64,000 nucleotides of DNA, taken from NCBI RefSeq assembly GCF_004116385.1, contig NZ_PEIB01000018.1, positions 11,496 to 75,495 on the forward strand, given 5' to 3'. Positions 3,001-28,109 of this stretch are shown piece by piece (position 1 is the first letter of the stretch; the number at the start of each line of letters is the position of its first letter). The translations under genes and the position numbers were made by a program. The DNA is from Veronia nyctiphanis. Its GTDB lineage: Bacteria > Pseudomonadota > Gammaproteobacteria > Enterobacterales > Vibrionaceae. Under the pieces are notes generated by a model. That model ran no database searches and was not told the origin of the DNA. It was given only the letters and a program-made list of their open reading frames with translations.

Positions 3001-6000
3001 GATGGTCAAGATATCCCTGTTACCGCAAACGAAACCACAGGAGCATGGTCTGTTACTGTCCCCAACCTCGAAGATGATACCTATGAATATTCTGTGGTAG
3101 CAACCGATGCAGCGGGTAACAGCACTAGCTTGACCGGGCAGGTGGAAATTGAAACCACAGCACCAACAACGTTGACAGCCAGTTTGCATGACGATATTGA
3201 TACTGGCGTTAAGGACGATCAGCTTACCAATTCTGTTAACCCTAAATTATCCGGAAGTGTTGAGGCTGGGTGTCGTGTGAAGGTTGAAATCGATGGCCAA
3301 ACGTACGACGCGACAGTGACAGGCTCAACGTGGGAAGTGGGGCCATTCAATGCGTTGGCTGCCAATCAAAGCCATGACTACAAGGTTATTGCCACTGATA
3401 TTTACGGCAACGTCAAAGAGCTTAATCAATCTCTAAGCATTGACACGGTTGCACCAACAGTCACGTCAGACATCACCCCGGGTGCGCAGGGCTCAGGTAT
3501 CAATATTGATGAACCGACGAATACCATTAACAGTAAAGGTCCAGCCTTTAACGGTACAGTTGACAATGATATCAATACTGTAACAGTCACCTTTAACGGT
3601 AAAGATTATCCTGCCGCCGTTGATAGTGCGGAAGGCACCTGGAGTATCAATGCGGTCGATCTTGTCTCGACAGATGGTACTTATAACTACAGCGTGAAAG
3701 CCGTCGACAAAGCAGGAAATAGTACTGTCGAGAACTTCAAAGTGATTGTTGACACTCAGGCTGCGGTGACTCTCAATCTGGCTGATGCCTCGGATACCGC
3801 AGGCTGGATGATGATTCTCTCGCAACGGACAATATCACAAAACTGGCACGGCCTGAGTTCAACGGTACGGGTGACCCGGGTGCAGCAGTAACAATTTCGT
3901 ATGTCCACAACGGCAATACAATAACCAAGTCAGGTACTGTTGCTGATAACGGCAACTGGAGCCTCGAATTCGTCAGCGACATACCACATGGCGCTCATAC
4001 CATCACCGTTGAACTCGAGGATGCGGTGGGTAATACGGCTAGTCAGACTCTGGATGTTACCATTGACCTTCAAGTGCCTGAGGCCACTGTTGCAGGGCTT
4101 GATAGCGACAGTGATTCAGGCGAAGCTGGAGACCAGTTGACCAATGTCACCCGGCCAACGATTGAGGGCACAGCAGAACAAGATAGCAGGGTGGAGATTA
4201 CGGTTGGCAACCAGACTTACCTCGCTACTCGTGATGGTGACAAGTGGACATATATGTTTGACGAGATTGACAGTGATGGGGTGGTTAATTACACCGTAAA
4301 AGTCACCGATGCTGCGGGTAACTCGACGGTTGAGACGAATACACTCACCATTGATACCGCGACACATCTCACTGTCAAACTATCAACAGAATCCGATCCT
4401 GAACAGGATGGTTATACCAATGCTTCACATCCGAAAATTGAGTTTACACAAGAGCAAGGAGCAACCGTTAACGTTGTTGTTACGAACACAGCAACAAGCG
4501 TAGTGTTCGGAAATTGGAGTTATTCGCAAGAGTCGACATCTTGGCATATTGCGCCAGAGATACCTGAGGGAACCTACCTGTTTAAAGTGACGGCGACAGA
4601 CAAAGCAGGCAACACAGAAATTGTCGAGCAAACCTATACCGTAGACAGAACAAACCCAGAAAAACCCACGGCCGGTTTATCTGCTGGGTTTGACACAGGA
4701 AGCGATACCGCTGACACCATCACCAACGCTGATCAGCCGAGATTCTCAGGCAACGCGGAGCCACACGCAAAAGTCACCTTCACCCTCAATCCGGGGCAGG
4801 CTGATGAGGTTGTAAAAGTTATTCAAACCGATGAAAGTGGTGATTGGTCTTATCAGCTCGCTTCGAAGCTGACGGAAGATAAGACCTACGATTATACCGT
4901 CGTCGCGCAGGACAGAGCAGGTAATACGTCTGTTGAAACTGACGGCCAGTTTACGTTGGATACCGAGGCGCCATCATTCTCATCTTTGTATGCCGAAGAT
5001 GGATCGAATCAACAACTGACCGACTGGACGTCAAAAGAAGATGCGGCGGACTTTTCCATCAAAGGCCAGGTTGCCGGTGAGTCTGGAGTATCGAGTGTTA
5101 AGCTGACAATCAATGGTTCTGAAATTATCAAACAGGACACCCTCACTAACGGTCAGTTCACTATTGAATTGAACAACAATCTTCCTGAAGGTAACCATAC
5201 GCTGAGGTTTGAGGTTGAGGACCTTGCAGGTAACGTGTTTACCAAAGTGCAAACACTGGTTATTGACCGTTCTTGTGACCTGACGGCCAAATACTTAGGA
5301 ACGGATACCGGAGAATCTAACAAAGACGGTATTACCTTTGACAAGACACCGACATTTACTGGAACCACAGACAAGAATGCTACGGTATTTATCGTACTGA
5401 CTGGCGGGACAGACAACCAAAAATATGAGTTCGAAACGACTGCTGATGACGAAGGTAACTGGGAATACCAGACAGATGTTGAGCTGTCTGATCAAGATTA
5501 CACATGGACGATACACGCCACAGACCCATATGGCAATACCAGTGAGAGTGAGACAGGAAACCTTACGATAGATACGGTGGCTGCGACCTTCGACTTTAGA
5601 TTGGACAGCAGCCATGACCCAGACGGTGACTCGATCACCAAAGACCGTGAGCTGACATTTAGCGGCTTAACCAGCGAACCAAACTGTACGGTGAAATTGT
5701 ATCTGGTCGATGGTGAAGACCCGATCACCGTGAAAAGTAATGCAGATGGTAATTTTACCCTCACAACCGAAACCCTCGATTTCCAAGTCTATGACTACAG
5801 GGTTGTCGTCACAGATATAGCAGGAAATGAATCTGAGAGGACAGGCTCATTCACCGTACTGCCCGAGAATCTAGATCTCACTGTTAATCTGGATATCAAC
5901 GACAATACGGGCGCTGTCGACGACCAAGCTAATCCAATTACATCTGTGACCTCTCCCAGAATTCATGGTGTCGCCAGCCCGGAAGCCACTATCACGATAA

Positions 6001-9000
6001 AAGTCATCGATAAAGATAATGGGAATAATGTTGTTCATACATTAACCACGACGGCAGACAGAACAGGCCTCTGGGATTTTGATTTGCCTACGCTATCCGA
6101 CAATGGCTATGCCATTGAAGTGAATGCTGTCAAAGGTGATTACAATCAGACTGTGACAATGCCGCTGACCATAGACACGGCAAACAACCTGACGTTTGAA
6201 TTGGAAAACGATACGTCGGATGGTTTGGACATTACTTACGCCAATCCAGTGAAAATTTCCGGGCAATCTGATCCCGGTTCGACGGTCACCGTGGAAGTGG
6301 GTGGTGAAAAATACATTGCTTATGCTAACGAAAGCACTGGCTATTACAGTGTCTTTGTTACCGCGTTGGGTAATGGCGAACATACGTATACAGTTAAAAG
6401 TGTCGATAAGGCGGGTAACGTTGCTGGCTATGATGGTGGAGAGATTACCGACGGCGCTGCGGGGGTTGGCTCCTTTGAGATTGACCGAGAGGCACCAATC
6501 ATCACGGCAAATCTCGAAAACGACAGTAACATTGCTGACGACGGTATTACCAAAAATGCCAATCCAATATTCAAAGGCACGGTAACAGGCACCTACGAAT
6601 CTATCTACATCGATCTCGGCACTTCGAAGCATTATATCTTCAAAAAAGGGACGGGCGCCGTTGATCTGGTTGATGAATATGGTAATTGGACGATTGAATT
6701 ACCAAACCAGGAAGCTGGGACGTACAACTATAAAATTGTTGCTACTGATCTGGCCAATAACAAGGCGGAGATCGGCGGTATTCTTCGCATCAAAACGGAT
6801 ATTAAATTCGAATACTCGCTTGATGAGGGGCAGGATGGCGTCAGTGCTAACGACCTGATCACTAACAATACCCAACTTGAATTTTCTGGTCTGACTGACC
6901 CAAAAAATAAGGTTATAGCTAAGCTTTATGGCCCCGGTGATACGCTGCTCGATACGCTGGAAGATACCGCAAGTAACTCCGGTTCGTATAACATCAACTT
7001 CCCACAAACCTTGAATGATGGTGTTTACCGCGTTGTCTTCACAGTCAGTGATCTCGCAGGCAACGAAGAGACATTCAATGTTACCAACATCACCTTGGAT
7101 ACGACTATCGGTAACCTCACTGTGGGGTTAGATCAGTCTGCTGAAACGGGCGATACAGAGTTGTTTAGTAACGCAAACAATGATGGTATCACCAGCCGGA
7201 CCAACCCAATTATAGCTGGGCAAGGTGAAGCCGAAGCCAAGATACACCTTATTGTCAGGGACGAAAACGATAATATCGTGCTTGAGAATGATACTTACGT
7301 CAGCAAAGACGGTACGTGGTCTTATCAGATGCAGGGGCTAACGGACGGAGGCTATTCGATTCAGGCGACAATGTCTGACAGAGCTGGCAATGAAACGGTA
7401 TCACCTGTGACCTACGATATCGAGGTGAAAACCAGTGCGCCGTCACTGACGTGGAATATCGTTGAGGACACTGATAACAGTGCCATTATCAGTGAAGCGG
7501 AATACAAAGCAGCAACTCAGGAGGGCATATTGACCTTCACAGGTACGGGTGACAGCGGCGATAAGGTGCTGGTCGTGATTGGTGGGCAAGAGTACTATGC
7601 CGACGTGGGCTCTAACGGCCAGTGGTCGCTGAAAACAGATAAACTGCCAGACCTTAAATATCCGTTCACCGTTCAGGCCATTGATGTCGCGGGTAACATT
7701 ACGACACAGGAAGGCGAGATCATCGTTGATTCAGGTATCTCTCTTGAACTCGATTTAGCAGATGACACCTATCTGCAAGGTGACTACAAGACTAACATAG
7801 ATAACCCGAACATTAGCATTACCACTGAAAAAGACAACGAACTGACTTTTATCCTCCGCGACAGTAACAACAACATCATTAAACAGGAAACATTTGTCGC
7901 CGATTCAACCTCCTTCAACTGGAAAATGCCGGACGGCTATACCTATGTCGATGGTAATTACTCTCTCGAAGTCCAAGCGACAGATGTTGCAGGTAATGAG
8001 ACCACCCAGACGATCAACTATACCGTAGATACCACTATCGCAACGGCATCCGGGATCACTGTCGGATACAACCAGTGGGGACACCACCACACTGGCGCTG
8101 ATGATGGCGTTTACTACACCAATATGAAAAACCCTGACCTAAGAATAAAAACTGATAGCGATACGGTTCGGGTCTGGATAAAAACGGAAGATGGTACGAC
8201 GTCAACCAGCTCGGACCGCGTAGGTGGCGCATTCACGCTTCATGTGCCGGGTTCACTAAGTGGCGGTTCTGAATCACAGGCTGACACCCACACTGTGACG
8301 GTGATTCAAATCGATGCCGCGGGTAACAAAACCGAGCAAGACGTTCAGTTGAGCATTAAGAACTATAACATGCCATTTTCGTGGCAGCTTGAAGGCTTCA
8401 ACAAAGAGGGTGGGCTCCATCACGGCAACCTTGAAGGAACCCCTGTCCTTAAAGGTGAGTGCACGCCAGGGCTGACAGTCGTTGTGCGTTTATCCGGTAA
8501 CGGCGTATCCACCACACTGACCGCGTTAGTTGATGACGACGGCAATTGGGAAGTGGACTTTCCGAGAGAGTTTCAAGATGGCGTGTATACCATGCATCTT
8601 GATGTGTCGGACAAGTGGCACAACATGGACTTCTCACACAATAACCTGATTGCTATCGATACTTTTGCGCCTGCATTCGACTACGGCGCGAGTGGTGATC
8701 TTGATGAGGGCAATGATGTTCTATTGAATACCAACTCGGGGACATTGAGTGGAGACATAGAGCCAGGGGCAACGTTAGTACTTGTCATTGGGTACGGCTC
8801 AGAGTCACCAACAGAAGTGACCATCACGCCGAGCGAAAACGCATGGGAGCTCGATCTTTCGTCATTGAATTTAACGGAAGGCGTGGTCAACAACTTAGCA
8901 TTAATTGCCACAGACAAAGCGGGCAACGTGACGACCAAAGCGTTTGATCTCAAAGTTGATATGCAGGTCGAGCAGCTCACCTACAGTATCGAGGACACGG

Positions 9001-10741
9001 GGTCAGATACGACTGACGGAGTGACCTCGAATAGCACCATCTCAATCGCGGGCTTGGAAGCGATGGCTGTCTGGGAATACTCAATAGACGGCGGTATAAC
9101 GTGGGAACTTGGTGTTGGGGCATCATTCGATGTGTCTCAAGGCAACTACGAAGCAGGTGATATTCAGATACGCCAGACCGATATGGCGCAAAATGTGGCT
9201 GTCACTGAACTTCCGGCATTGACCTTTGACCTCACTTTACCTGCTGCGACAGTCAGTCTGAATGACCTCGGGGCAAGCGACAGCGATAACATCTCTAAAT
9301 CAGGCACTATCACTCTGGATAATTTTGGCGAGGGAGAAACATGGGAATATAACCTATTGTTTGGCTATGGCGATTGGGTAACAGGGGAAGGGAACAGCTT
9401 TGAATTGGCGGAAGGTAACTATGGCGCAAGTCAGATTCAGGTGCGTATTACCGACCCCGCTGGCAATGTATCTCTTAAATTGTTATCTGAGATGTCGATT
9501 GATAAATCGATAACGGCACTTTCTTTAGATATTGCCTCAGTAGATTCAGCAGACTCTGATTTCAACACAAGAGATGGCGTGTTTACCGTATCGTCAGTGG
9601 AAGCTGGCGGTAGCTGGCAATACAGCACTGATGGCGGTAACAATTGGCATTCAGGAACTGGAAATCAATTTGCGCTATCAGCACAGGGTAGCTACGAAAA
9701 AGATGCCATACAGATAAAACACATCGACGTTGCGGGTAACGAGAAAGTGACTGTCTACCCGCATGCCATTACCTATTCAAACCTTAATGTGCAAAGCATC
9801 TCCACCGCAAACGACTCGGTAACTGAAGGAAGCAAAGATGCACTCAGCTGGACGGTCGAGTTTGATGGCCAGCATGCCGGTACGCATAGCTTGAGTCTTC
9901 AATTTACTGGCACAGATGGCTTTGACAGTAATGATGTTGAGAGACTCGAAGTTACCTACATGCTGAATGGACAATCGTTCACCGATACTGTGTCGTTCAC
10001 TGATATTGGCGATGTCGAGTGGACAATTCCTGAATCTGCAGAACAAGCAACATTTAACCTCTTTACCCAACAAGACGGCAAGCTTGAAGGGAATAAGAGT
10101 ATCACGCTGAATGCTGCTGTTGATGATGATGGCAGTTGGGTAATGGCTGACAAAGCCGCGACCATCAACGATGACGACGCCGTATCGATAAGTGCTCAAG
10201 AAGACAGCAATACTGCCGATTTTATAACTAATAGCACCACGCCGACATTTGAGGGTGAGGTAGAGCCGGCGCCACCGTCAGCCTTACAATCGATGGAACG
10301 GAAGTGGCAACAGGAACTGCTGATAATTTTGATGGCAGCTTCCAGCTTGATGTACCGCAGTCAGCCGGTCTCAGTGAAAATAGCTACAACTACACGCTCT
10401 CAATCAGCTACGAGAAAGATGTCGGTGGGAAGACTGAAAGCATCACCACAGAGAAAACAGGCAGCTTCGAGATAGATACTACGCCACCAGCAATATTCCT
10501 CGACAATGCTGAGAGCTTGCAAGAGGGAGATGACAGCATGGGAGGCAGTGGCTATAGCGGTAATGACATCGGTGGCACAGTGACGGTTTCCAGAGACGGT
10601 GAAGAGCTGGGTACCGCAACAATACAGGATGATGGCTCTTGGCAAATTGATAACCCAGGCTATCAAGCTGGAGATGGTATTACTATTTCCATAGAGGATG
10701 TGGCAGGCAATACATCGATGAACGATTACAATATCGGATAA
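1..10741 (+). CDS. Giant Ig-repeat adhesin (SiiE/BapA-like), 5' end outside window, frame broken
   Basis: This is the C-terminal ~3,580 residues of a surface adhesin and the likely substrate of the secretion genes that follow. Up to about 2600 it has Ig-like repeats of ~103 residues, each ending in AGN(S/T) and then an LDTTAD-like linker. From about 2900 to 8950 it has Big-type domains with DSG..GD..TN..P...G signatures. Three repeats with WEYS/WQYS and GN(Y) motifs span about 8980-9760, a Calx-beta-like domain about 9780-10180, and two Ig-like domains close the protein. No GGxGxDxUx RTX repeats are seen. The reading frame breaks at four places: near 50-60, near 197, near 3795 and near 10272. 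At each the domain sequence resumes in another frame. At 10272 one missing G in a GGG run explains the break. The longest intact stretches are 211-3891 and 4026-10475. The adhesin assignment follows from the repeats and the secretion genes. Binding specificity cannot be told. Confidence 0.85.
77..2580 (+). repeat. Tandem ~310-bp Ig-like domain repeats in the adhesin
   Basis: The linker motif (L/I)D(T/K)x(A/V)D recurs at about 77, 388, 690, 999, 1314, 1624, 1938, 2245 and 2554, a spacing of 302-315 bp, or ~103 codons. The copies are diverged at DNA level, so this is protein-domain repetition rather than a recent duplication. Acidic residues at the domain junctions (TADEND, VIDEND, TADADN) look like inter-domain Ca2+ sites, as known for SiiE-type Ig rods. 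That role is inferred. Confidence 0.8.
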
Positions 10742-10945: not shown

Positions 10946-12274
10946 ATGAAGGCTCAGAATTCACTTTGCTTATTTTTTCTGACTGCAATGCAAAGCTTCT
11001 CCGTATGCCATGCGTTTGAAATTTCTCATGACGTAAATAGGTCAATAAAGTACGGAGTATCGTTTAATGATGTTTTTGAACAAGCATTATATTCATCTAG
11101 AGAATATCGAGCGATACAGAAAGAGTTGTTATCCAATTCTGAACTTTCAAATAAAGAACGGAATTACTATTACCCTAAAGTCCTCCTATCTGGTGAAGTG
11201 AAAGAGAACTATGGCGAGCCGATCAAAGATCCGAGAACAACGGCTGATGTAAAACTCACCGTTAACTCAAAAATCTACGGAAGCCAAACACAGAACAGAC
11301 AAGATGCCGCGGGAAATAATGTCCTTTCTTCTGATTTCACCCTGATGAGTAAAGAGATGGAAGTGTACTATATCGTACTGAACTTCCTGACAAAAATTGA
11401 ACGGACAAGACTGTATGAGCGACAAGCAAAACAGATAGGCAGAGAGATTGAGGTTCATTACCAGCAGCAACTAAGGGCCTCAAGAGAGGGGGTCGGAACG
11501 CAATCTGATGAAGTGGATGCACGATTAAAGAAATCTCGGTTTAATCAAACGGTATTCGGTATTACGTCTAAGATCGATAATTATTTCCGCGATTTAAAAA
11601 GTGAAACTGGTTTTATGGTCGAGGGCGACCCTAACGTTGCGTATAAAAAAATAGGCCTCGAATACAGTAATATACTACCGCTTCTCGAAACCACACCAAG
11701 TGTTCTGACAGATGAAATGCTGGTGGATAAAAACTTTGGCATTTTAAGTAATATTAAATCGTTGGAAGCAACGAAACTTTCGAGCGAAGCTGGGCGTGAA
11801 AGATTCAAAATAATGCTAAATAATGAGAACGCTGTATCGTTATTGTCTGGTAGCCCTTCATCAGGTGTGAATACAGGTGATACAGGTAATTCTTATGTGT
11901 CTATAAAGTTTGAGCTTGATGTATTTGATCACGCCTTAGAAAGTGATAAACGTTCAGCACTTTATTTATTCGAGGCTGAGAGAGAAAAGCTATTTAAACG
12001 CGTTGAGGAAATGTCAGCAGAGTCGGAAGCGTTAACATACCGCTTTGAAACCTTGGTTAAGAAACGCAGTTCGATAAATAAGCAAATCAAGCTAAGTAAA
12101 GACCTCATCATCAAACAGAAAAAAGAAATCGTACTCGATAAAGTAAAAAGTATCGATATTGTTGATAGCCTGACATCACTGAATCAGTCTTATATTTCGC
12201 TGATGAATATAGAACTCGAGCAGTATGACATCATCTATAAACTCCTCGAAATGAAGTCTGAGAGGGCGTTCTGA
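10946..12274 (+). CDS. TolC-family outer-membrane channel (SiiC-like)
   Basis: This 442-residue protein has an N-terminal signal peptide (about residues 1-24, ending near CHA) and the long amphipathic helices of the outer-membrane efflux protein (TolC/LapE/SiiC) family. Examples are the segments near residues 130-180 and 330-430, rich in E, K, L and Q. It would form the outer-membrane duct of the type I secretion system for the upstream adhesin. The stop codon overlaps the next start by one base (TGATG), so translation with the adaptor gene is probably coupled. Overall sequence is diverged from classical TolC. Assignment rests on the signal peptide, coiled-coil character, length and the neighbouring adaptor and ABC genes. 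Confidence 0.8.
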   Translation: MKAQNSLCLFFLTAMQSFSVCHAFEISHDVNRSIKYGVSFNDVFEQALYSSREYRAIQKELLSNSELSNKERNYYYPKVLLSGEVKENYGEPIKDPRTTADVKLTVNSKIYGSQTQNRQDAAGNNVLSSDFTLMSKEMEVYYIVLNFLTKIERTRLYERQAKQIGREIEVHYQQQLRASREGVGTQSDEVDARLKKSRFNQTVFGITSKIDNYFRDLKSETGFMVEGDPNVAYKKIGLEYSNILPLLETTPSVLTDEMLVDKNFGILSNIKSLEATKLSSEAGRERFKIMLNNENAVSLLSGSPSSGVNTGDTGNSYVSIKFELDVFDHALESDKRSALYLFEAEREKLFKRVEEMSAESEALTYRFETLVKKRSSINKQIKLSKDLIIKQKKEIVLDKVKSIDIVDSLTSLNQSYISLMNIELEQYDIIYKLLEMKSERAF

Positions 12275-13511
12275 TGCTAACAAAGAGAAAAGAATTTGGT
12301 TACGTTCTCTTGCTGCTCGTCGTGTCAGTATTTCTTTATATTTTGTTTGTTAAAAAGATTGAAGTGGTCGCGCCTGGCACAGGCTTGACGGGCATCAAAG
12401 AAAGTAACGTCAATTTAAAAGCACCGGAAAGTAGCTACATCGTTGAAATTGTGTCATCTCAGGGCACCGAAATTCGCACGGGCGAGCCGCTGCTTCGTTA
12501 CCGCAATATGGCCGACGAGTACCAACTTGACCAAATCACCCAAGAGCTGAATATCGACAAACGTATCTTTCAGGAACTGGAAGATGAACGCTGCTTTTTG
12601 CTCAGTGACCGATTCAGTGATTCAAAAATTGAGCAATTGAAGAGAGGTTGTAGTGGTGATGAAACTTCCTATGGCGCGGGTGGCTCTATATTCTCAGCTT
12701 CTACGAAGATTATCTGCAAGAGAAAAAATACTTGCTTGATATGGCGATTGAACGCCAGAAAAAAGCAGAAGAGTTACTTAATAAGCGAAAGATATTAGCG
12801 ACCAAGCAAGCCATCCACCGCAAAGCAAACGGATCAACACTTCGGTTTTATGATTTGAAAACCGAGCTTTCAGACCTTAATAGCGAAATCGTCAGTTTTG
12901 ACATCAGTAACCTTGAAAACCAAAAGAAGCTCAGCGATAAGCTTATGGTTTTCCAAATGCGTCGATCTGAGCGCCTACTGACCATCGATGAAAAGCTCGA
13001 TACTTTGCAGATGGAGATCATTCAAAAAGAAAATGAGCTGAGTCTGCTGTCAGAGAAGAAACAAAAATCGCTCATCCGCTCTCCCATTGATGGCACTGTG
13101 CTTGAAATGACTGAGGGCTTGTCTGTCGGTACCTTTGTGCAGGAAGGCAGTTCACTCTTTGTGCTCAAGAAAGAGGGGGCCTCGCAGGAAGTCTCCGCCA
13201 AGTTTGATACCAAATATCGTCACTTCCTTAACGTTGGCCGTGATGTCAAGCTGAAGATCAACTCGCCGGGCTTCAACAAAGTGTTCTCAGGCAGAATATC
13301 TGAACTCAGTTCCGACTCCTTAGCCTACGAAGAACAAAACCAATCGGGCAAACGCTATTACCGCGTCACTATCGAACCTGACCAGGAGTTTGTTGATCTC
13401 TCATTGAATCTGGGTATGGATGTGCAAGTCTTCGTTATTGACGATGAAGTCAGCGTGTTTGGCTTTATCCTCAGTGTGCTTCCCAGCGATATTCGATTTG
13501 ATGTGTGGTAA
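12274..13511 (+). CDS. HlyD-family membrane-fusion protein of the T1SS (SiiD-like), frame broken
   Basis: This periplasmic adaptor links the ABC exporter to the outer-membrane channel. It has one N-terminal membrane helix (about residues 9-26, YVLLLLVVSVFLYILF), a first lipoyl half (APESSYIVEIVSSQGTEIRTGEPLLRY), a long coiled coil, the second lipoyl half (LIRSPIDGTVLEM) and a beta-barrel end (about 13180-13450). The frame breaks near 12680: frame 1 gives a nonsense tail ending at 12798, while frame 3 continues the coiled coil (FYEDYLQEKKYLLDM). One lost base, possibly in the GGG at 12678, accounts for it. With that base restored the protein would be about 412 residues, normal for the family. 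The next gene begins 3 bp after its stop. Confidence 0.85.
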
Positions 13512-13514
13512 GCC

Positions 13515-13988
13515 ATGATTGGATTTGTTTCTGCCTTATCCGCCTCGCTCGCGATCATTATTTTGGTCACCATCAGTGCGTTGGTGGGTTATATCGAGTC
13601 GATTTTCCCTACTCATGGCCTGATAAAGATCAACGAGAGCAAATATCGCTATGTGATGAAAGGCTATTACATTGACGAAAAGCTGCTGAGAGAAGTCATT
13701 CTCACCGTCGATGATGTGGGACTGACAGAAAAGGTCGGCTCATACCAGACAGGCTGTAACTATGGGTTTAATACCAGCGAGCGTGAGATGACGGTGATAC
13801 CGACCTTCAATTACGTCACCTTGAACCAATATTTTTCCAGCTCGATGCCGATCGACAACATCATGGTCATAGAGGAAAAAGGACAAATTAACACGTGTTT
13901 CATCGACATAAATCTCGGTGAACGTGTGTTGCCGGGCTCAGAAGAGACTGAGCAACCCGAGACAGTGAAGGAGGACGAGAATGGATGA
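13515..13988 (+). CDS. Small membrane-anchored protein, aspartate-less MotB/SiiA-like paralogue
   Basis: This 157-residue protein has one N-terminal membrane helix (FVSALSASLAIIILVTISAL, residues 4-23) followed by a periplasmic part of ~125 residues with no domain I recognise and two cysteines. The helix resembles that of the next gene product (FVDALASALIVMVLVSIFFL) position by position. Here Ser6 stands where the next protein has an Asp. I infer that the two are paralogous stator-type subunits, this one unable to carry protons. It lies 3 bp after the adaptor gene and overlaps the next gene by 8 bp, so the genes are surely cotranscribed. Function is unknown. Confidence 0.7.
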   Translation: MIGFVSALSASLAIIILVTISALVGYIESIFPTHGLIKINESKYRYVMKGYYIDEKLLREVILTVDDVGLTEKVGSYQTGCNYGFNTSEREMTVIPTFNYVTLNQYFSSSMPIDNIMVIEEKGQINTCFIDINLGERVLPGSEETEQPETVKEDENG

Positions 13989-14436
13989 TGACAGCCTAGC
14001 CCCCTTCGTCGATGCGTTGGCATCAGCACTGATTGTAATGGTGCTGGTTTCTATTTTTTTCCTCGTCCAAACGGCAATGACTGTGCAGGAAAAAGCCAAA
14101 CTGATTGTCATTAACGACAAACCTATCGAAGAGAGTGAGCCTGCACCCAACCCTATTGTATTTCGTGAGTTGATAAACATCGACCTCGACAATAACACGC
14201 TGACTTACTTGCTCAATTTCAAAATGGATGAACAGTTAATCACGCAAATCCGCAGCCAGATGTTGTCCGGTCAGACGGTAGAAATCACCGTGACCAGCTC
14301 AGATGCTGAGAAGAAAAGTGTGGTGAACATGCTGCGCTTTCTTGGGTTTATGGATTTGCCCGACGAAATAGATGTGAAAACAAAGATTGAACAGTCTGAC
14401 AAGCTTCTGTCGACATTAAGCTGGGAGATAAATTGA
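13981..14436 (+). CDS. MotB/ExbD/SiiA-like proton-channel subunit
   Basis: This 151-residue protein has a short acidic N-terminus (MDDDS), then one membrane helix starting PFVDALASALIVMVLVSIFF with an aspartate (Asp11) at its cytoplasmic end. It ends in a ~115-residue periplasmic domain. A single membrane Asp at this position is the proton-carrying residue of MotB, ExbD, TolR and Salmonella SiiA. The periplasmic part is too short and diverged for a confident OmpA-like peptidoglycan-binding fold. The stop overlaps the start of the MotA/SiiB-like gene by one base (TGATG). Together the pair should form an inner-membrane proton channel serving the secretion system. The family call is an inference from topology, the Asp and the context. 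Confidence 0.72.
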   Translation: MDDDSLAPFVDALASALIVMVLVSIFFLVQTAMTVQEKAKLIVINDKPIEESEPAPNPIVFRELINIDLDNNTLTYLLNFKMDEQLITQIRSQMLSGQTVEITVTSSDAEKKSVVNMLRFLGFMDLPDEIDVKTKIEQSDKLLSTLSWEIN

Positions 14437-16238
14437 TGCACTTTCTAGGAATCTTATTCTACATTTGTATCCCACTTGGGGTATACATGGTGGATACGAC
14501 GCGTTCATTCGTCATGCAGTCGCTTGAATTGTCTCCTGAAATCACCATATTGATCATCATTGCGTTTGCCTATCCGCTGATATTATTTTTTGCGGTAATG
14601 GCGTATCACCTGACAGATAACCGACGCTTCTCGCTCGAATACTACAAGGGACAGGTTAACCTCTGTTCATCGCTCTGTGTGTCTTTCGGTCTGATTGGTA
14701 CCTTTGTTGGCCTTGCCTTGATGATTGAAGGTATCGCCTCAGGTATGGGTGTCGAAGGTGATTTTTCGACCAAAATGGCATCACTGCTCGGCGCGATCAG
14801 CTCAGCCATGGATGCAATGTCACTGGCCTTCCTGACGTCTATTTTGGGTGTCAGCGCCTCAGTTGCGATTCTCTTCAGTACTAACTTCTTCAGCTCGTAC
14901 TTTCTGACTCATGGCCCCAGCAATGAGAAAGAAGGTTACCGTGCGACGGCGGCAGGCGGCTCGGGTTCATCAACCACCAATATTGTGGTTAATAAAGACT
15001 CGGAAGAAAGCATCATAGTGATCAAAGATGCGCTGCGTGAATCGCTCGAGATGATCTCCAGCAAAGAAAAGGTGTGGTCAGATTTATTCCTGCTGATGCA
15101 GAAAAGCTCCGGCTCAACCGTCGTTGATCAACTGAACAAAATACTTTATCGCAACAATCAGCTCGTTGAGCTGATGTCTGAGCAAATCAAGCAGATGCGT
15201 CAGGAGCAGTCGACAGGTCTTGAGGGTATTCAGGTCTCGATGAAGAAAAATGCCGACCAGCTGTCGGATGATTTCACCCAAGTGTCGACGGCGCTGGATA
15301 CGGTGTCTTCCTCGGTGGAGAAAATGAACGAGGTAGTGGCTGAGAGTCAGAATATGACATCGGCAGTCATTGAGAAAACCAGCAACCAAATGACAGAAGT
15401 GATCAACCGAAACCTCAGAGAGCTGAGCAAGGTTGCTGAGATCCTTGGCGATATTCGCCTCGCGGTTGCGGTACCGATTGAAGACGCACTGAAAGATGCG
15501 CTCCGCCAGAATGTATTTACCTTGATGTTCCAACCTGTTTTCCATGGCAATGGAGAAGTGAAGGGGGCAGAAACCTTCTTACGCTGGGAGGACCCGGTGC
15601 GTGGTTCGGTGTTAACTCGTGACTTGCTTGATGCTGCAAGAGAGGCTGACTTGTTAAATGATGTCGACCGTTGGGTAATGGTCAACGCGATTCGCCAGCT
15701 CTCTAAGTGGTACTTCGATGGAAAATGGCAAGACTCGTGGCAGCTTTCGATTAACTGCAGCAGCGAACGCCTGCTCTTCCCGTTGTTCATGGCCGAGCTG
15801 ACCTCTGAGCTGGAGAAAGCCAAGATCCCGCCGAAATTGCTCGCCTTTGAAATCACCGAACAAACCATCATGGATAACCCTGAAGCAGTCAATGACAAGA
15901 TGATGCAATTGCACCGTCTGGGTGTCAGTGTCTATCTTGACAACTTTGGTACAGGCTTCACGTCGCTCGGCAACCTGAGAAACATGGATATTGACCGGGT
16001 GAAAGTCAGCCGAACTATCACAGATGGTATGACGCAGGATTTATCCGGCGTCACCTCAATCATCCGCTCCATCATGGTTATTGCCAACGAAATGGATCTC
16101 AGTGTGTCTGCTGAAGGCATAGAGACCAAAGAACAGATGGAGTTGCTCAAACGTGAAGGTTGTAGCATGTTCCAGGGTTACTACTTTGGACGACCTAAGT
16201 CACCGGAAGAGTTCATTCTCGAATACATCAGAAACTGA
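14436..16238 (+). CDS. MotA/ExbB/SiiB-like channel subunit fused to a degenerate EAL domain
   Basis: This 600-residue fusion has membrane helices near residues 3-20, 35-57, 78-100 and 125-150. They include the stator signatures GLIGTFVGLALMI (85-97) and AMSLAFLTSILGVSASVAI, typical of MotA/ExbB/TolQ. Residues ~190-345 form a cytoplasmic coiled coil and ~355-600 an EAL domain. The EAL core keeps Glu379 (AETFLRW), Asn440, Glu472, Asp502, Lys523, Glu560 and Gln580. But EAL reads ETF, and the second Asp of DDFGTG is Asn503. Enzyme activity is therefore doubtful and c-di-GMP sensing more likely. The ATG at 14436 is preferred over TTG at 14433 because it gives the TGATG overlap seen elsewhere in the operon. 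It probably couples c-di-GMP level to proton-driven control of adhesin export or retention. Confidence 0.88.
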   Translation: MHFLGILFYICIPLGVYMVDTTRSFVMQSLELSPEITILIIIAFAYPLILFFAVMAYHLTDNRRFSLEYYKGQVNLCSSLCVSFGLIGTFVGLALMIEGIASGMGVEGDFSTKMASLLGAISSAMDAMSLAFLTSILGVSASVAILFSTNFFSSYFLTHGPSNEKEGYRATAAGGSGSSTTNIVVNKDSEESIIVIKDALRESLEMISSKEKVWSDLFLLMQKSSGSTVVDQLNKILYRNNQLVELMSEQIKQMRQEQSTGLEGIQVSMKKNADQLSDDFTQVSTALDTVSSSVEKMNEVVAESQNMTSAVIEKTSNQMTEVINRNLRELSKVAEILGDIRLAVAVPIEDALKDALRQNVFTLMFQPVFHGNGEVKGAETFLRWEDPVRGSVLTRDLLDAAREADLLNDVDRWVMVNAIRQLSKWYFDGKWQDSWQLSINCSSERLLFPLFMAELTSELEKAKIPPKLLAFEITEQTIMDNPEAVNDKMMQLHRLGVSVYLDNFGTGFTSLGNLRNMDIDRVKVSRTITDGMTQDLSGVTSIIRSIMVIANEMDLSVSAEGIETKEQMELLKREGCSMFQGYYFGRPKSPEEFILEYIRN

Positions 16239-16326
16239 TTTTTGCTTTAGGCGTCGTGCATTTTTCGATGCTACGCCTTATCTCTATCGTTTTTGGTGTT
16301 TCTGAGGTTGAAAAAGGCAAGTGTCT
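16239..16326 (+). other. Intercistronic stem-loop before the ABC gene
   Basis: An imperfect hairpin, GGCGTCGTGCA at 16250-16260 pairing with ATGCTACGCC at 16268-16277, lies between the channel-EAL gene and the ABC gene. There is no immediate U-run, so it is more likely a processing or attenuation element than a full terminator. Confidence 0.35.
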
Positions 16327-18270
16327 ATGAAATCGAATATTGAACAGTTAGTCAGAAGTACGCACGCCCGATTTGACTGGGACCTTTTCTCGCGTCTGGA
16401 TAGCGAGAACGTTGATGCATTCCTTTCTGATATCAATGACAACTTCTCTGATCCTTTGTTCGAGTACCATCTTCACAGAAAACTGGTGTCAAATGTAGAA
16501 GATCTCCCTGAAGCCTTTGTCACGCTGGGTTACGACTCGATGTATGTTTATCGGACCGGGAATACCTATGTCAGCGAGGGCGTGGGTAAGGTTGACCCTG
16601 AAACACTGATCGCGAAAGAGATTGTTTATATTCAGGACTACCCCAAGAAGATGTCTGGCAAGGGCTTTGTCGAAGTCATTTATGCTCTCTATCCAAAAGT
16701 GAATTTTTTCCTGCTGGCCACCGTGCCCTTTGTGATCATTCCTGCTTTTTATTCAAACTTGTTTAACACCCGCCTTATCTTCAATGACATGGTCACTACT
16801 TTGTTCTATGTCACCATGGCCTTTCTGCTTCTCTGGGGCGTTGATTATGGGATGAAAAAGGTCATCAAACATCGCCACCTTAATCGTATTGACGAAAATG
16901 CGCTGAAAATAGAGCGTTACATGCTCAGTATTGTGCCGTATTTACCCACGGGCAGCGCCTTGATGAAAGTTCGGACCATAGAATCAAACAGGAAGACGAT
17001 TTGGGAGAATATCTCGGGTGTTATTGTCGACTTTGTCAGTATTTGTCTGGTTGTCGGGATCCTCTTTGCCTTCATTGGTTTTTATGCGTTTGGCCTTGTG
17101 CTGTTTTATTTTGGCGTGATGTTAGCGGCAACCTACATGCGTTACCGCAATTACACCATGTACATTGAGCTTGAGGCCGCGCAGCAAGACTTGTTGGCTG
17201 AGCGGATTTCATACTACAAAAACAACACTCATTTACGTTTTCTGGATGGTGCGGCCACATTGGACAGCTTCGAGCAGTCCTGCAAAAAGTCGTACCATTC
17301 TGATCACGGCATCACCAGTTTTAATTTCAACTGGGATGAACTCGTCAGAGTTACAACGTTCCTCGCCAGTACTGTGCTGTTCACTGTGATCTTCTTTTCA
17401 TCGAAATCAAACCCTGAAATTTTCAACGTACTGATTGCCTGTTTGATCCTTAACGGGCGGGTTGCGTCATCCGTCGTTAGTTTGGTGACTAAGTCGTTCT
17501 TTATTTTGGTGTCGACGTATCACATGAATACGGCGCTGAAAGATGTGTTTGAGTCCTTCGACGACAAGCTGTTTTCAAAAGGAATGCAGTTAGACAAGAT
17601 TAACCGCATCAGCCTAAACAATGTCGCGATCATGACCGATGAGAAAACGCTGGTGCAGGACATCAGCGCGAAGTTCACCAAAGGTAATATTTATGGATTC
17701 TACGGTAACGTAGGCTCGGGTAAATCAACATTGATGCAGACGATTCTGCGAAACCACCATAATTATTCTGGCAGTATCGTTTTCAATGATTTCTATAATG
17801 TCAGAGATATCGACCCAAATGTATTTGGCAAACGCGTTGCGTATTTAGACCCATCGTCAGACTTTCTGAAAGGCTCACTGTATTCCAACTTCTATGTCCG
17901 TGGGGTGAGAGATACTGGCCAGATTGCCAAGGTGTGTAGCAGCATTTTCCCTGATGCGATGATTGATTACGAGTTTGTCTTTGTCCGAGACATCACGACG
18001 ATTCCTATGTCTACAGGACAAAAACGTAAGCTTCTACTGATGATGACATTGAATAAATCGAAAGAAGTGGTGGTGTTGGACGAAGCGTTCATCAACATGT
18101 CTGTCGTCGACATTGCTCAGTTGATCGTGTTCTTGAAAACAGAACTTAGCCACGCGATCGTGTTTATCGTCAGTCATGACAGACAAATTCTTAATCAGCT
18201 CGATAATCTTTTCGAGATCCGTGACGGTGGCATGACGAACATTAAGAACTCCATTGTGAAGGTGGTGTAG
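16327..18270 (+). CDS. Type I secretion ABC transporter (SiiF/LapB-like)
   Basis: This half-transporter of ~647 residues would drive export of the adhesin. A soluble N-terminal domain (about 1-130) lacks an evident C39 catalytic Cys, as in adhesin exporters that do not cleave a leader. Membrane helices lie at about 135-180 and 230-280 and again near 340-390. The nucleotide-binding domain has Walker A GNVGSGKST (~residue 459), signature MSTGQKRK in place of LSGGQ (~560), Walker B VVVLDEA (~580) and H-loop VSHD (~615). The usual Q-loop glutamine is not obvious (VAYLDPSSDFL). The ATG at 16327 is chosen over GTG at 16321 because AAGG at 16314-16317 sits about 9 bases before it. It is separated by 88 bp from the preceding gene but clearly part of the same locus. 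Confidence 0.87.
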   Translation: MKSNIEQLVRSTHARFDWDLFSRLDSENVDAFLSDINDNFSDPLFEYHLHRKLVSNVEDLPEAFVTLGYDSMYVYRTGNTYVSEGVGKVDPETLIAKEIVYIQDYPKKMSGKGFVEVIYALYPKVNFFLLATVPFVIIPAFYSNLFNTRLIFNDMVTTLFYVTMAFLLLWGVDYGMKKVIKHRHLNRIDENALKIERYMLSIVPYLPTGSALMKVRTIESNRKTIWENISGVIVDFVSICLVVGILFAFIGFYAFGLVLFYFGVMLAATYMRYRNYTMYIELEAAQQDLLAERISYYKNNTHLRFLDGAATLDSFEQSCKKSYHSDHGITSFNFNWDELVRVTTFLASTVLFTVIFFSSKSNPEIFNVLIACLILNGRVASSVVSLVTKSFFILVSTYHMNTALKDVFESFDDKLFSKGMQLDKINRISLNNVAIMTDEKTLVQDISAKFTKGNIYGFYGNVGSGKSTLMQTILRNHHNYSGSIVFNDFYNVRDIDPNVFGKRVAYLDPSSDFLKGSLYSNFYVRGVRDTGQIAKVCSSIFPDAMIDYEFVFVRDITTIPMSTGQKRKLLLMMTLNKSKEVVVLDEAFINMSVVDIAQLIVFLKTELSHAIVFIVSHDRQILNQLDNLFEIRDGGMTNIKNSIVKVV

Positions 18271-18438: not shown

Positions 18439-19077
18439 ATGGGTGTCAGTTTTCCACGTTGGTGTGTTTTCGTCGTCTTCATGTTGACTGGCTGCGAGTC
18501 CGGCCCGAAACAGAATGCTTATTCAGGTCCTGATTCCGCCAAAGTGCCAATCACTTCCGTTGTTTTTCCTTCCGACATTGAGCAACGTGTATTTTCACTG
18601 CGTCGAAATAATCTTCACCCTCAACAGACACAACAATTTATTACATCTATTGAATCAATAACGGTCACTGACATCCCTTTTTTTGTCTACAGCGATTCAA
18701 CGTCTAACGAAGAAAAAGAACAAAAAAAAACAACCTTGTGGTTTGATGTCGATTTGTATCAAAACAGCCAATCTCACCCTTATACCAAGCAATCTGTGCA
18801 GTGTGACTCTAACGGTGTGGAGAGTTGTCAGGGACTCAGTAGCTACCAACTATCGTGTGATAAGATTTCGTCAATTGCGGTGTTAAATTTCCGAATTACC
18901 TCGGTCAGTGACGACGCTGTGATCATGAATCGTGACTTCAGAGTGAGGAGCGAGGAAGATACTTGCAAACAAAAACGCGCCGTCGGCGGTCGTTCACCTG
19001 GCGAGCTCTTGGATCCTCTCTTTCGGCAAGTGGCGGTTGAATTGCAGTTGCTTGTGGATATCGCCAGTAGTCAGTAA
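18439..19077 (+). CDS. Lipoprotein of unknown function downstream of the T1SS
   Basis: This 212-residue protein has a short hydrophobic signal and lipobox LTGC (Cys19), so it should be lipid-anchored; Glu at +2 favours the outer membrane. No known domain is recognised. Its mature part has six cysteines and a hydrophilic middle (EEKEQKKTT) encoded over a run of nine A at 18722-18730. It follows the ABC gene by 168 bp on the same strand and is closed by a strong terminator, so it may be the last gene of the secretion locus. A link to adhesin export or anchoring is only a guess from position. Confidence 0.7.
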   Translation: MGVSFPRWCVFVVFMLTGCESGPKQNAYSGPDSAKVPITSVVFPSDIEQRVFSLRRNNLHPQQTQQFITSIESITVTDIPFFVYSDSTSNEEKEQKKTTLWFDVDLYQNSQSHPYTKQSVQCDSNGVESCQGLSSYQLSCDKISSIAVLNFRITSVSDDAVIMNRDFRVRSEEDTCKQKRAVGGRSPGELLDPLFRQVAVELQLLVDIASSQ

Positions 19078-26172: not shown

Positions 26173-26847
26173 ATGTGTATAGATATTCTTATCATTGAAG
26201 ATGATAAAGAACTTGGTGATATGTTGACCTACTTTTTAAGTACGGTTGAAAACTATTCAGTTTTTCGTCATAACTCTGGTGAAAATGCGTTGAATCTGGT
26301 TATAGAAAAAACGCCCCGTCTTATATTGCTTGATATTCAGTTACCTGTTCATACGGGGTTTGAAATACTGACTTCTTTAAGGGATGCATCGATTCTTACC
26401 CCGGTTATCATGATGACTGCTAATGATAGCGAGCTTTCAGAGACAAACGCATTGGTTCTTGGCGCTGATGATTACATTAGAAAGCCAATCAGAGCTAATG
26501 TGCTGAAAGAAAGAATTAAACGACTTATTTCTCCCACTGTGAAATTACAAGAAAAACTTATCCTTTCGATGAAAGAGAGCCAACTTCTTTATCAAGATAT
26601 AACCGTTCATTTATTACCCTCCGAGTTTGAAATTTTGGAGATACTTGCTCAAAGCGATGAACCAAAGTCAGTACACGATTTATTCTTTGATATTCATGGT
26701 TACGAAGCAAATGCTGATGATAAATCGATATATATGCGTTTGTCCTCGTTAAGAAAGAAAATAAGTAAATATTTTGTTGGTCAGGAGTTAATAAAAAATA
26801 AGCGAAGTAGAGGATTTTATTTAACCCGAGATATTGAAAAACAATGA
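26173..26847 (+). CDS. OmpR-family response regulator
   Basis: This 224-residue two-domain regulator has an N-terminal receiver with acidic pocket Glu9-Asp10-Asp11 (IIEDDKEL), phosphorylation site Asp54 (LILLDIQLP), a Thr in the MMTAND segment and Lys in YIRKP. Its C-terminal winged helix (~130-220) has LPSEFEILEILAQ and the recognition region DDKSIYMRLSSLRKKI. It would be phosphorylated by the histidine kinase encoded next, whose ATG overlaps its stop by four bases. The target genes are unknown. The sequence is AT-rich and its wing region is diverged from the classical OmpR/PhoB consensus. Confidence 0.9.
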   Translation: MCIDILIIEDDKELGDMLTYFLSTVENYSVFRHNSGENALNLVIEKTPRLILLDIQLPVHTGFEILTSLRDASILTPVIMMTANDSELSETNALVLGADDYIRKPIRANVLKERIKRLISPTVKLQEKLILSMKESQLLYQDITVHLLPSEFEILEILAQSDEPKSVHDLFFDIHGYEANADDKSIYMRLSSLRKKISKYFVGQELIKNKRSRGFYLTRDIEKQ

Positions 26848-28028: not shown

Positions 28029-28109
28029 ATTTCTCTTTGCGAAGCTTTCAGCACAAGGAATGGGAGCTCCCTGCACAATATGGTTTCTCGCTATAAGCTT
28101 TGTGGGGCT

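Follow-up and report, generated by a model that had tools for sequence, protein, structure and literature searches.

Within the 64,000-nucleotide stretch of Veronia nyctiphanis DNA analyzed here (the window; positions 11,496 to 75,495 of contig NZ_PEIB01000018.1), a series of genes on one strand encodes a giant Ig-repeat adhesin, a TolC-type outer membrane protein, an HlyD-type adaptor, two small membrane proteins, a protein in which a membrane domain is joined to an EAL domain, and an ABC transporter (Table 1). The fusion gene had been described in a first-pass annotation as lying inside an adhesin secretion operon, and the genes that flank it on the same strand agree with that description. 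The adhesin-like frames run on to the left of the window as far as the end of the contig, where the adhesin N terminus was not found, and the HlyD-type gene occupies two frames in the window and one in Veronia pacifica. The small protein encoded beyond the ABC transporter gene shares 27% identity with the V. pacifica protein encoded in the same place.

Table 1. Features of the locus (window coordinates)
Feature	Position	Strand	Basis or remarks
Giant Ig-repeat adhesin (SiiE-like)	211..10741	+	Frames 211-3891, 4026-10475, and 10304-10741
TolC-type outer membrane protein (SiiC-like)	10946..12274	+	Profile matches
HlyD-type adaptor (SiiD-like)	12274..13511	+	Overlapping frames 12274-12798 and 12732-13511
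orf157, a paralogue of orf151 over its hydrophobic segment	13515..13988	+	Ser/Ala/Gly replaces Asp
orf151, MotB/ZorB type, single N-terminal hydrophobic stretch, invariant Asp D11	13981..14436	+	Alignment, profiles
Fusion gene: MotA/ZorA/SiiB-like membrane domain, helical linker, EAL	14436..16238	+	600 amino acids
Membrane domain, residues 1-155	14436..14900	+	Hydropathy, invariant columns, profile matches, hhalign
Linker, residues 156-349	14901..15482	+	Conserved blocks, ZorA-tail likeness, model
EAL domain, residues 350-587	15483..16196	+	PF00563, solved-chain matches, residue inspection
ABC transporter (SiiF-like)	16321..18270	+	Profile matches
Small protein, function unassigned	18439..19077	+	3' of the ABC gene; membership in the system uncertain

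The fusion gene is a single open frame of 600 codons plus a stop, confirming that membrane domain and EAL domain belong to one protein. Its ATG overlaps the stop codon of the preceding gene (TGATG), and the codon immediately before that ATG, TTG, is an alternative start. The N-terminal 161 residues and the EAL part are 88% and 90% identical, respectively, to the V. pacifica gene, dN against that gene is only 0.077 (the program returned a dS of -1, which we take as saturation), and seven further fusions are found elsewhere; the fusion gene is therefore real. An assembly artefact as the source of the fusion is ruled out by its occurrence at nine loci and by the single branch formed by each half of the protein. 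Recent capture of the EAL domain in the V. nyctiphanis genome was likewise rejected: composition carries no sign of it, GC3 being 0.56, 0.61, and 0.60 in the channel, linker, and EAL portions.

Relationship of the membrane domain and linker to stator subunits

Hydropathy peaks of the membrane domain fall within residues 1 to 22, 24 to 60, 73 to 106, and 115 to 154, and the stretch GLIGTFVGLALMI, previously quoted as a stator signature, corresponds to residues 85 to 97. T89 (in GLIGTF) and T134 (in AFLTS) are invariant in alignments of 13 and 14 relatives. The full-length fusion did not match MotA_ExbB in Pfam at an E value of 0.1, and it was not among the matches when the V. nyctiphanis genome was searched with PF01618 at E values up to 10. 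The N-terminal domain of the window protein alone (160 amino acids) matched MotA_ExbB with an E value of 0.0072 and a score of 16.5 bits, under the curated cutoff of 22.9 bits, and an MFS model ranked above it (E, 0.0011), likewise under its own cutoff. Among the relatives, all 14 N-terminal domains matched MotA_ExbB (best E, 7.2e-5), and all 14 matched ZorA profiles, which gave the better fit (best E, 1.3e-9; window protein, 9.8e-7). Consistent with these matches, the channel domain scored 43.0 in hhalign against a TolQ/ExbB/PomA profile and 45.6 against a ZorA-like protein of the same genome, with 60 column-shuffled controls for each comparison reaching at most 16.3 and 19.2, respectively. 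The hhalign probability varied with the profile used, from 25 to 26% for a three-sequence TolQ/ExbB profile to 83 to 85% for a five-sequence profile, and from 0.7 to 79% for single proteins; the pooled five-sequence profile held five of the six PF01618 matches of the genome, the sixth (L085) being compared singly. Against the PDB, family profile A2 found nothing under an E value of 0.077 and a chain named MotA, TolQ, or ExbB at 0.49. A2 comprised 12 of 13 family members (L021 omitted), A4 comprised 13 of 14 (the near copy L017 omitted), and A6 comprised 14 of 20 N-terminal domains.

Structure prediction had been named in advance as one test that could overturn the stator assignment. The predicted N-terminal model was middling (pLDDT, 63.1; pTM, 0.49), and with this low-confidence model 12 of the 15 top Foldseek rows were ZorA, ExbB, MotA, TolQ, or PomA entries, the ZorAB complex coming first, yet the best E value was 0.14 and none fell below 0.1. 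In a second structure comparison, designed and unrelated helical bundles equaled or exceeded the score of ZorA (8vvn_D: Z, 9.7; 131 residues aligned; 3.8 Å), so the assignment of the channel fold rests mainly on the profiles. Overall, the comparisons support placing the N terminus in the MotA/TolQ/ExbB type, as first proposed, with the refinement that its nearest profiles are those of ZorA rather than MotA.

The linker contains two conserved blocks, one at residues 206 to 232 (KxKxWxDL..S.STVV) and one immediately before the EAL domain at residues 330 to 349 (LxxVAxILxDIR), the latter with 64% mean pairwise identity. It was helical in a poor full-length model built on a two-sequence alignment (pLDDT, 43.3), the EAL part of which still retrieved EAL structures. 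Residues 202 to 355 resemble the tail of the ZorA profile (E, 8.4e-8 for the whole protein). Together with the ZorA-like channel domain, this tail might be taken to mark a Zorya-like defense protein that lies near the adhesin operon by chance, but such a reading is scarcely credible, given adhesin secretion genes at all nine fused loci and a ZorA score of 23.2 bits against 100. When ten window proteins were scanned with PADLOC, eight had no match at an E value of 0.001, the ABC transporter matched only two mads models, and no other Zor match appeared, the neighbors being type 1 secretion system (T1SS) genes. We therefore rejected membership in Zorya on the grounds of neighborhood and ZorA score.

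Small partner proteins

The two small membrane proteins encoded just upstream of the fusion are paralogous MotB-like subunits, of which orf151 alone has the predicted proton-carrying Asp. The MotB-type Asp is present in all 19 orf151 sequences, a set collected by similarity that included that stretch; 13 of the 19 made up A5. The orf157 proteins of L076 and L117 were assigned by position and start motif, being absent from the BLAST matches. A single orf151 sequence found nothing in the PDB under an E value of 0.13, and an orf151 profile gave six matches, headed by an unrelated epimerase (0.015), with a MotB-like chain in third place (0.38); no chain named SiiA, a protein whose periplasmic domain binds peptidoglycan, appeared up to an E value of 10.

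The EAL domain and its catalytic positions

The EAL domain is complete, as had been claimed: PF00563 matched with an E value of 7.8e-60 and a score of 202.6 bits (curated cutoff, 31.3 bits) over profile positions 2 to 236 of 236. Solved chains matching it at E values of 1e-20 or lower represent 28 distinct sequences, and the best PDB sequence matches are MorA, followed by the EAL domains of BifA and DosP. The window EAL retains E379, N440, E472, D502, K523, E560, and Q580, and its AEG motif is intact, but it reads DNFG, the second Asp of DDFG being replaced by N503, so the full catalytic set is incomplete. Across the nine fusions, EAL domains show 53% mean pairwise identity, and the six metal- or substrate-site residues E379, N440, E472, D502, K523, and Q580 are invariant. 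Six have Asn for the DDFG Asp and four have Asp for the AEG Glu, so that one or two catalytic positions are altered in six of the nine, the window protein among them. The remaining three (L068, L069, and L072) retain both DDFG and the AEG glutamate; none of the EAL positions examined is altered in L069 or L072, and of these positions L068 has lost R383 and E475. This combination of site residues kept in all nine fusions and catalytic positions altered in six suggests a role in sensing c-di-GMP rather than in degrading it efficiently, and catalysis may persist in L068, L069, and L072.

The same residues bear on a rather unlikely alternative, in which the EAL domain would be a working phosphodiesterase that lowers c-di-GMP locally at the adhesin machine, with the stator positioning or controlling it. 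Such activity would fit the invariant site residues, the intact positions of the three fusions just named, and the MorA, BifA, and DosP matches, but in the window protein N503 takes the place of the second DDFG Asp found in active enzymes, and a MorA PDB entry with Asn at both Asp positions bears the title "mutant phosphodiesterase." Moreover, the changes in catalytic positions affect two branches that stand apart in the tree, and the glutamate replaced by Asp in four fusions occupies the position identified as the catalytic base of ZMO1055 in the available part of a report on that protein (PMC12900916). Altered catalytic positions in six of the nine also make it distinctly improbable that the signal runs from the outside in, the stator sensing proton-motive force or adhesin pull and acting on the EAL domain so that attachment is read into the c-di-GMP level, even though the conserved pre-EAL block joins tail to EAL domain and catalytic residues are intact in part of the family.

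Distribution of the family

Members of the family were found in 16 of the 329 Vibrionaceae genomes searched, eight fused to an EAL domain and eight unfused, and a ninth fusion came from a genome of another family of the order. In the fused proteins, the channel half and the EAL half each form one branch; the EAL tree included, besides the fusions, 7 of the 15 other matches from the V. nyctiphanis genome and three further EAL domains. A search for such fusions and for co-occurring SiiC/D/F-type genes had been proposed at the outset, and in line with the expectation all nine fused loci carry TolC- and HlyD-type genes (in L116, HlyD was matched by its N-terminal part only), two small membrane proteins, and a giant Ig-repeat adhesin. 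At five of these loci the fusion adjoins the ABC transporter gene, which lies 23 to 35 kb away at the other four. Where adhesin N termini are readable, a short domain is followed by a charged stretch. We found no description of a MotA/ExbB-EAL fusion in the open-access papers searched, in agreement with the earlier statement that no such described system was known.

Unfused relatives in an SPI-4-like gene order are also present on E. coli and Salmonella plasmids; the 20 plasmid relatives listed (E. coli, Salmonella, and Enterobacter) are 42.3 to 45.5% identical over the N terminus, and the loci examined, from 3 of 57 records, were all without an EAL domain. With the full-length fusion as the query, no place covering 80% was among the plasmid matches listed, and in phage records the query protein P0001 was matched in part only, none covering 80%. 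Because 8 of 16 members in Vibrionaceae, like all three plasmid relatives examined, go without it, the EAL domain is dispensable for the basic function. EAL-less members retain the other genes of the operon wherever contigs extend far enough to tell, as would be expected if the EAL domain merely rode along or capped the tail structurally, binding no nucleotide; the conservation of this domain among the nine fusions, its six invariant site residues, and the low dN relative to V. pacifica make that highly unlikely.

A putative c-di-GMP-responsive stator

We lean toward the reading that the fusion protein is the A subunit of a SiiAB-like, proton-driven stator for the T1SS of a SiiE-like adhesin, with a c-di-GMP receptor at the end of its cytoplasmic tail. 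Five copies would enclose two B subunits, one being orf151 and the other probably orf157, an arrangement that we assume by carrying it over from MotA, ExbB, and ZorA, and protons would pass at the orf151 Asp beside T89 and T134. The B-subunit pair, held by its periplasmic domain, would act on the secretion complex, in which the adhesin would stay held. Once bound by c-di-GMP, the EAL domains would pack differently where the linker ends and thereby turn the stator on or off, and we infer that the likeliest sense is retention and surface display of the adhesin at high c-di-GMP. EAL domains usually dimerize and so fit poorly into a pentamer, which counts against this stator-receptor proposal, as do the family members that go without an EAL domain and the broken frames of the adhesin and HlyD genes in the window itself. 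A bolder version, which we regard as possible but doubtful, is an asymmetric motor gated by c-di-GMP, in which five A-EAL chains and two unlike B subunits, only one of them bearing the Asp, pull on the adhesin or lock it within the secretion channel. To our knowledge, no earlier stator is known to carry a cyclic-dinucleotide receptor within the same polypeptide; were the motor coupled in both directions, c-di-GMP would set adhesin tension and adhesin tension would feed back on c-di-GMP.

Comparison with known systems

The layout of the locus resembles that of Salmonella SPI-4, in line with the comparison drawn earlier, the likeness to SiiAB being one of layout and subunit type. Both have a small subunit with an N-terminal Asp, a MotA-type subunit, TolC, HlyD, and ABC genes, and a giant Ig-repeat adhesin. 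Here, in contrast, an EAL domain, presumably absent from Salmonella SiiB, is fused to the MotA-type subunit, and there is an extra MotB-like protein without the Asp, orf157. The available part of one report describes SiiAB as a putative proton channel that controls SiiE retention, with uncoupling lowering retention, and assigns to SiiE β domains and a coiled coil (PMC6272769), with which the short domain and charged stretch of the adhesin N termini here may be compared. A 2025 review, in its available part, calls the use of proton-motive force by SiiAB unclear and describes SiiA to residue 210 (PMC12607715), whereas orf151 has 151 amino acids.

The parallel drawn earlier with the LapD/LapG system of Pseudomonas holds only as an idea, in that a giant T1SS adhesin is accompanied by a membrane-bound protein whose EAL domain is cytoplasmic. 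The fusion has a channel domain, and Pfam at an E value of 0.1 detected no LapD/MoxY periplasmic domain, HAMP, or GGDEF in it; the NCBIfam LapD equivalog covers residues 268 to 588 only, at 62.5 bits against a cutoff of 1,020. The sequence [TAP]AAG, which we take to be the LapG-type di-alanine cleavage motif, is absent from the first 300 residues of nine adhesin N termini from related loci (two of them fused loci), and 16 of the 17 family-carrying genomes encode a LapG-type peptidase elsewhere, in a gene of its own. On the evidence of these related loci, LapD-like proteolytic control is disfavored, although it may still apply to the window adhesin. LapD is described, in the available text, as using its EAL domain as a receptor only, with KVL for its EAL motif (PMC3032553), and thus lacks the first Glu that all nine fusions keep, making the likeness a loose one. 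DvhD of the Desulfovibrio DvhD/DvhG system is also a c-di-GMP receptor controlling giant adhesins, of the HD-GYP type; it has HD-GYP, PAS, and dCache domains and acts on a protease, and the available part of the report mentions no channel domain (PMC13090378).

Known controls of giant adhesins thus comprise a proton channel (SiiAB) on the one hand and c-di-GMP receptors that act via a protease (LapD and DvhD) on the other. A protein that naturally unites a channel with a receptor would link both modes, and through it the signal to settle or swim may, in some marine bacteria, act directly on the hold on the surface. It also offers a handle on SiiAB-type stators, since the switching signal should be soluble, known, and addable, and nature provides a comparison series of fused and unfused forms and of intact and altered EAL sites.

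Among other stators, ZorAB, the stator of Zorya defense, supplies the nearest channel-domain profiles and the first Foldseek row, with a likeness that reaches into the tail, but it has neither an EAL domain nor secretion genes. The Myxococcus gliding motor AglRQS, as we understand it, combines one MotA/TolQ-type subunit with two MotB/TolR-type subunits, both of which carry the Asp, and has no EAL domain. Control of flagellar MotA by c-di-GMP is exerted in trans by YcgR, a separate PilZ protein, whereas here the EAL domain lies within the putative stator subunit itself.

A stator-type membrane domain joined to an EAL domain

The first-pass annotation described a membrane domain and a complete EAL domain in one unbroken frame, and the fusion gene is indeed open for 600 codons, residues 350 to 587 of its product corresponding to the Pfam EAL domain (E 7.8e-60). 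Against solved structures, the EAL region matched 28 distinct chain sequences at E <= 1e-20, with MorA first. Residues ~1-155 form a hydrophobic region, hydropathy peaking within 1-22, 24-60, 73-106, and 115-154. A match in Veronia pacifica CAIM 1920 spans residues 1-600, its best segment being 85% identical. The start codon of the fusion gene overlaps the stop codon of the preceding gene, suggesting translational coupling. Unlike the adhesin and HlyD genes of the window, which are split over several overlapping frames through either decay or sequencing error, the fusion gene is intact; in V. pacifica, HlyD lies in a single frame.

Features of the window
Feature	Position	Strand	Remarks
Adhesin gene	211-10741		broken frames
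HlyD gene	12274-13511		broken frames
orf157	13515-13988	+	small membrane protein
orf151	13981-14436	+	small membrane protein
Fusion gene	14436-16238	+	MotA/ExbB/ZorA-type domain, linker, EAL domain
Large protein	19121-21769	opposite	three PKD stretches and two CBM5/12 modules; adjoins the operon
OmpR-type response regulator and histidine kinase	26173-28028
Separate EAL-only protein	28110-28847

Comparison of the full-length protein with Pfam gave no MotA_ExbB match, and the N-terminal domain alone matched MotA_ExbB with an E value of 0.0072, under the curated cut-off and ranked after an MFS model (0.0011). In an alignment of relatives, all 14 N-terminal domains matched both MotA_ExbB (best 7.2e-5) and ZorA profiles labelled MotA/ExbB/TolQ (best 1.3e-9); three NCBIfam ZorA models also matched 14 of 14 at E <= 1, the window domain scoring below the cut-off. 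Linker residues 202-355 resemble one ZorA profile as well, extending the N-terminal similarity. When a profile of 20 N-terminal domains was used as the hhalign query, with 60 column-shuffled controls, it scored 43.0 against a profile built from five of the genome's own TolQ/ExbB/PomA-type proteins (controls at most 16.3) and 45.6 against that genome's ZorA-like protein (controls at most 19.2); matches were weak to most single proteins and to a TolQ profile made from three sequences (25-26% probability). A moderate-confidence structure model of residues 1-161 (pLDDT 63.1) placed a ZorAB complex first in Foldseek (probability 1.00, E 0.14, not significant), and 12 of the 15 leading rows were ZorA, ExbB, MotA, TolQ, or PomA entries, all with non-significant E values; in a second structural comparison, other helical bundles scored equally well. 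T89 and T134 lie in the two motifs that line the channel in MotA/ExbB/ZorA-type proteins, and neither varies in alignments covering 13 and 14 relatives. Taken together, the profile matches, the hhalign scores relative to shuffled controls, and the Foldseek rows support a MotA/ExbB/ZorA-type domain. The stator-type N terminus proposed in the first-pass annotation is supported mainly by the profiles.

Distribution and origin of the fusion

Members of the N-terminal family were found at E <= 1e-10 in 16 of 329 Vibrionaceae genomes searched. Eight are fused to EAL, as read from their frames (G000, the own genome, and G006, G049, G204, G205, G233, G974, and G1044), and the other eight are proteins of 297-348 amino acids without EAL. 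A ninth fusion was found in G390, one of nine genomes from a different family of the same order. Samples of 394 genomes from the order, 369 and 185 from the class, and 398 from the phylum yielded no more close members, only distant MotA-like proteins. Phylogenetic analysis placed the nine fused N termini on a single branch (95/94; present in 96% of bootstrap replicates) and the nine fused EAL domains on another when compared with ten other EAL domains (100/99), both trees carrying a long-branch warning; one fusion event is thus the simplest reading.

Among 72,556 plasmid records, 57 carry an unfused N-terminal homologue: 30 are from Escherichia, 25 from Salmonella, and one each from Enterobacter and Photobacterium. 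In the three records opened, E. coli/Salmonella plasmids L112, L113, and L114, the homologue is annotated as hypothetical and lies in an SPI-4-like secretion operon, in the order orf151-like, SiiB-like (262-264 aa), a gene for 411-419 aa (assigned to the TolC family in two of these records), HlyD, and orf157-like; an ABC gene and an Ig-like giant adhesin follow in both stretches long enough to show them.

The EAL domain as a putative receptor

Residues E379, N440, E472, D502, K523, and Q580, whose roles follow work on RocR-type enzymes, are invariant in all nine fused proteins, positions being read from an alignment with MorA. One less likely rival reading would make the EAL domain a structural cap. 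A second rival would make the domain a local phosphodiesterase. Three of the nine fusions keep Asp in DDFG and Glu in AEG, one of them (L068) being altered at R383 and E475. In the other six, including that of the window, Asn replaces the second Asp of DDFG, and in four of these Asp also replaces the AEG glutamate. A PDB entry of MorA in which both Asp positions carry Asn bears the title "mutant phosphodiesterase." In ZMO1055, a glutamate of the AEG type is described as the catalytic base (PMC12900916). The changes fall on two separate branches of the tree, window/V. pacifica and L070/L071/L115/L116. Retention of binding residues together with altered catalytic residues fits a putative receptor. 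The model receptor LapD is described as having lost the first Glu of the EAL motif (KVL; PMC3032553), whereas the fused proteins keep it.

Conservation is 62% in the channel, 67% in residues 206-232, 64% in residues 330-349, 53% in EAL, and 28-33% in the remaining linker. We infer that a signal would need to cross the block at 330-349, which immediately precedes EAL; under the rival of outside-in signalling, it would travel inward.

A probable pair of unlike B subunits

An Asp opens the hydrophobic stretch of orf151 in 19 of 19 sequences, all retrieved through similarity extending over this stretch. The orf151 profile matched a MotB-like N-terminal chain of a ZorAB complex third among six non-significant PDB matches (E 0.38), and a ZorB model was matched by 2 of 13 members, the window's not among them. 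In the same stretch, orf157 is a paralogue of orf151 (hhalign probability 94%, E 1.6e-7; score 48.2, against a maximum of 26.6 among 60 shuffled controls). At the Asp position, in the hhalign register, 20 orf157 sequences have Ser (9), Gly (8), or Ala (3), and none has Asp. The most economical interpretation pairs two unlike B subunits, one of which would carry protons, suggesting an asymmetric stator with paralogous MotB-like proteins. Since fused, unfused, and plasmid forms all have both proteins, the pair probably predates the EAL fusion.

Secretion operon and a possible role in adhesin retention

The co-occurrence with SiiC/D/F-type genes that the first-pass annotation asked about was borne out: outer-membrane protein, HlyD-type protein, orf157, orf151, and adhesin-like frames are grouped at all nine fused loci, the HlyD match being limited to its N-terminal part at L116 and the adhesin frame cut by the contig end at L068. 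The ABC gene is adjacent at five (window, the V. pacifica locus L028, L068, L069, and L072) and, at the other four, lies on the same contig and opposite strand, 23-35 kb away (53-55% identity). In G233 and G205, adhesin frames lie in the almost completely read stretch between the ABC gene and the rest. The L070/L071/L115/L116 subgroup combines the distant ABC gene with changed DDFG Asp and AEG Glu. As a check on a Zorya-like defence role, ten window proteins were compared with PADLOC: eight gave no match at E 0.001, and the ABC protein hit only two models of another system, mads.

SiiAB is described as a putative proton channel controlling SiiE retention, which an uncoupler reduces, and the SiiE N terminus as having a coiled coil between beta domains that bears on retention and release (PMC6272769; PMC12607715). 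Adhesin N termini were readable at two fused loci, five unfused loci (L075 being a near copy of L074), and two plasmids. All have a short domain, after which most carry a charged stretch; no LapG-type [TAP]AAG site occurs in the first 300 residues of any of the nine. A 2015 review juxtaposes SiiAB and LapD as two retention controls and, in its passages on them, describes no joined domains (PMC6272769). Our literature search, which covered mainly open-access papers, found no description of a MotA/ExbB-EAL fusion, in keeping with the earlier claim of novelty. The fusion protein is best placed as a putative SiiAB-like stator subunit in which the c-di-GMP-type (EAL) domain is the new feature. The likeliest reading, with moderate confidence, is that the fusion acts in a stator and that c-di-GMP bound to its EAL tail would set how this stator influences adhesin retention.

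Downstream of its operon, V. pacifica has frames similar in size and order to those at 26173-28847 in the window. Elsewhere in the own genome, at L118, a LapG-type peptidase gene adjoins that of a divergent EAL protein, and the organism may therefore have a LapD/LapG-like pair besides the stator-EAL system.
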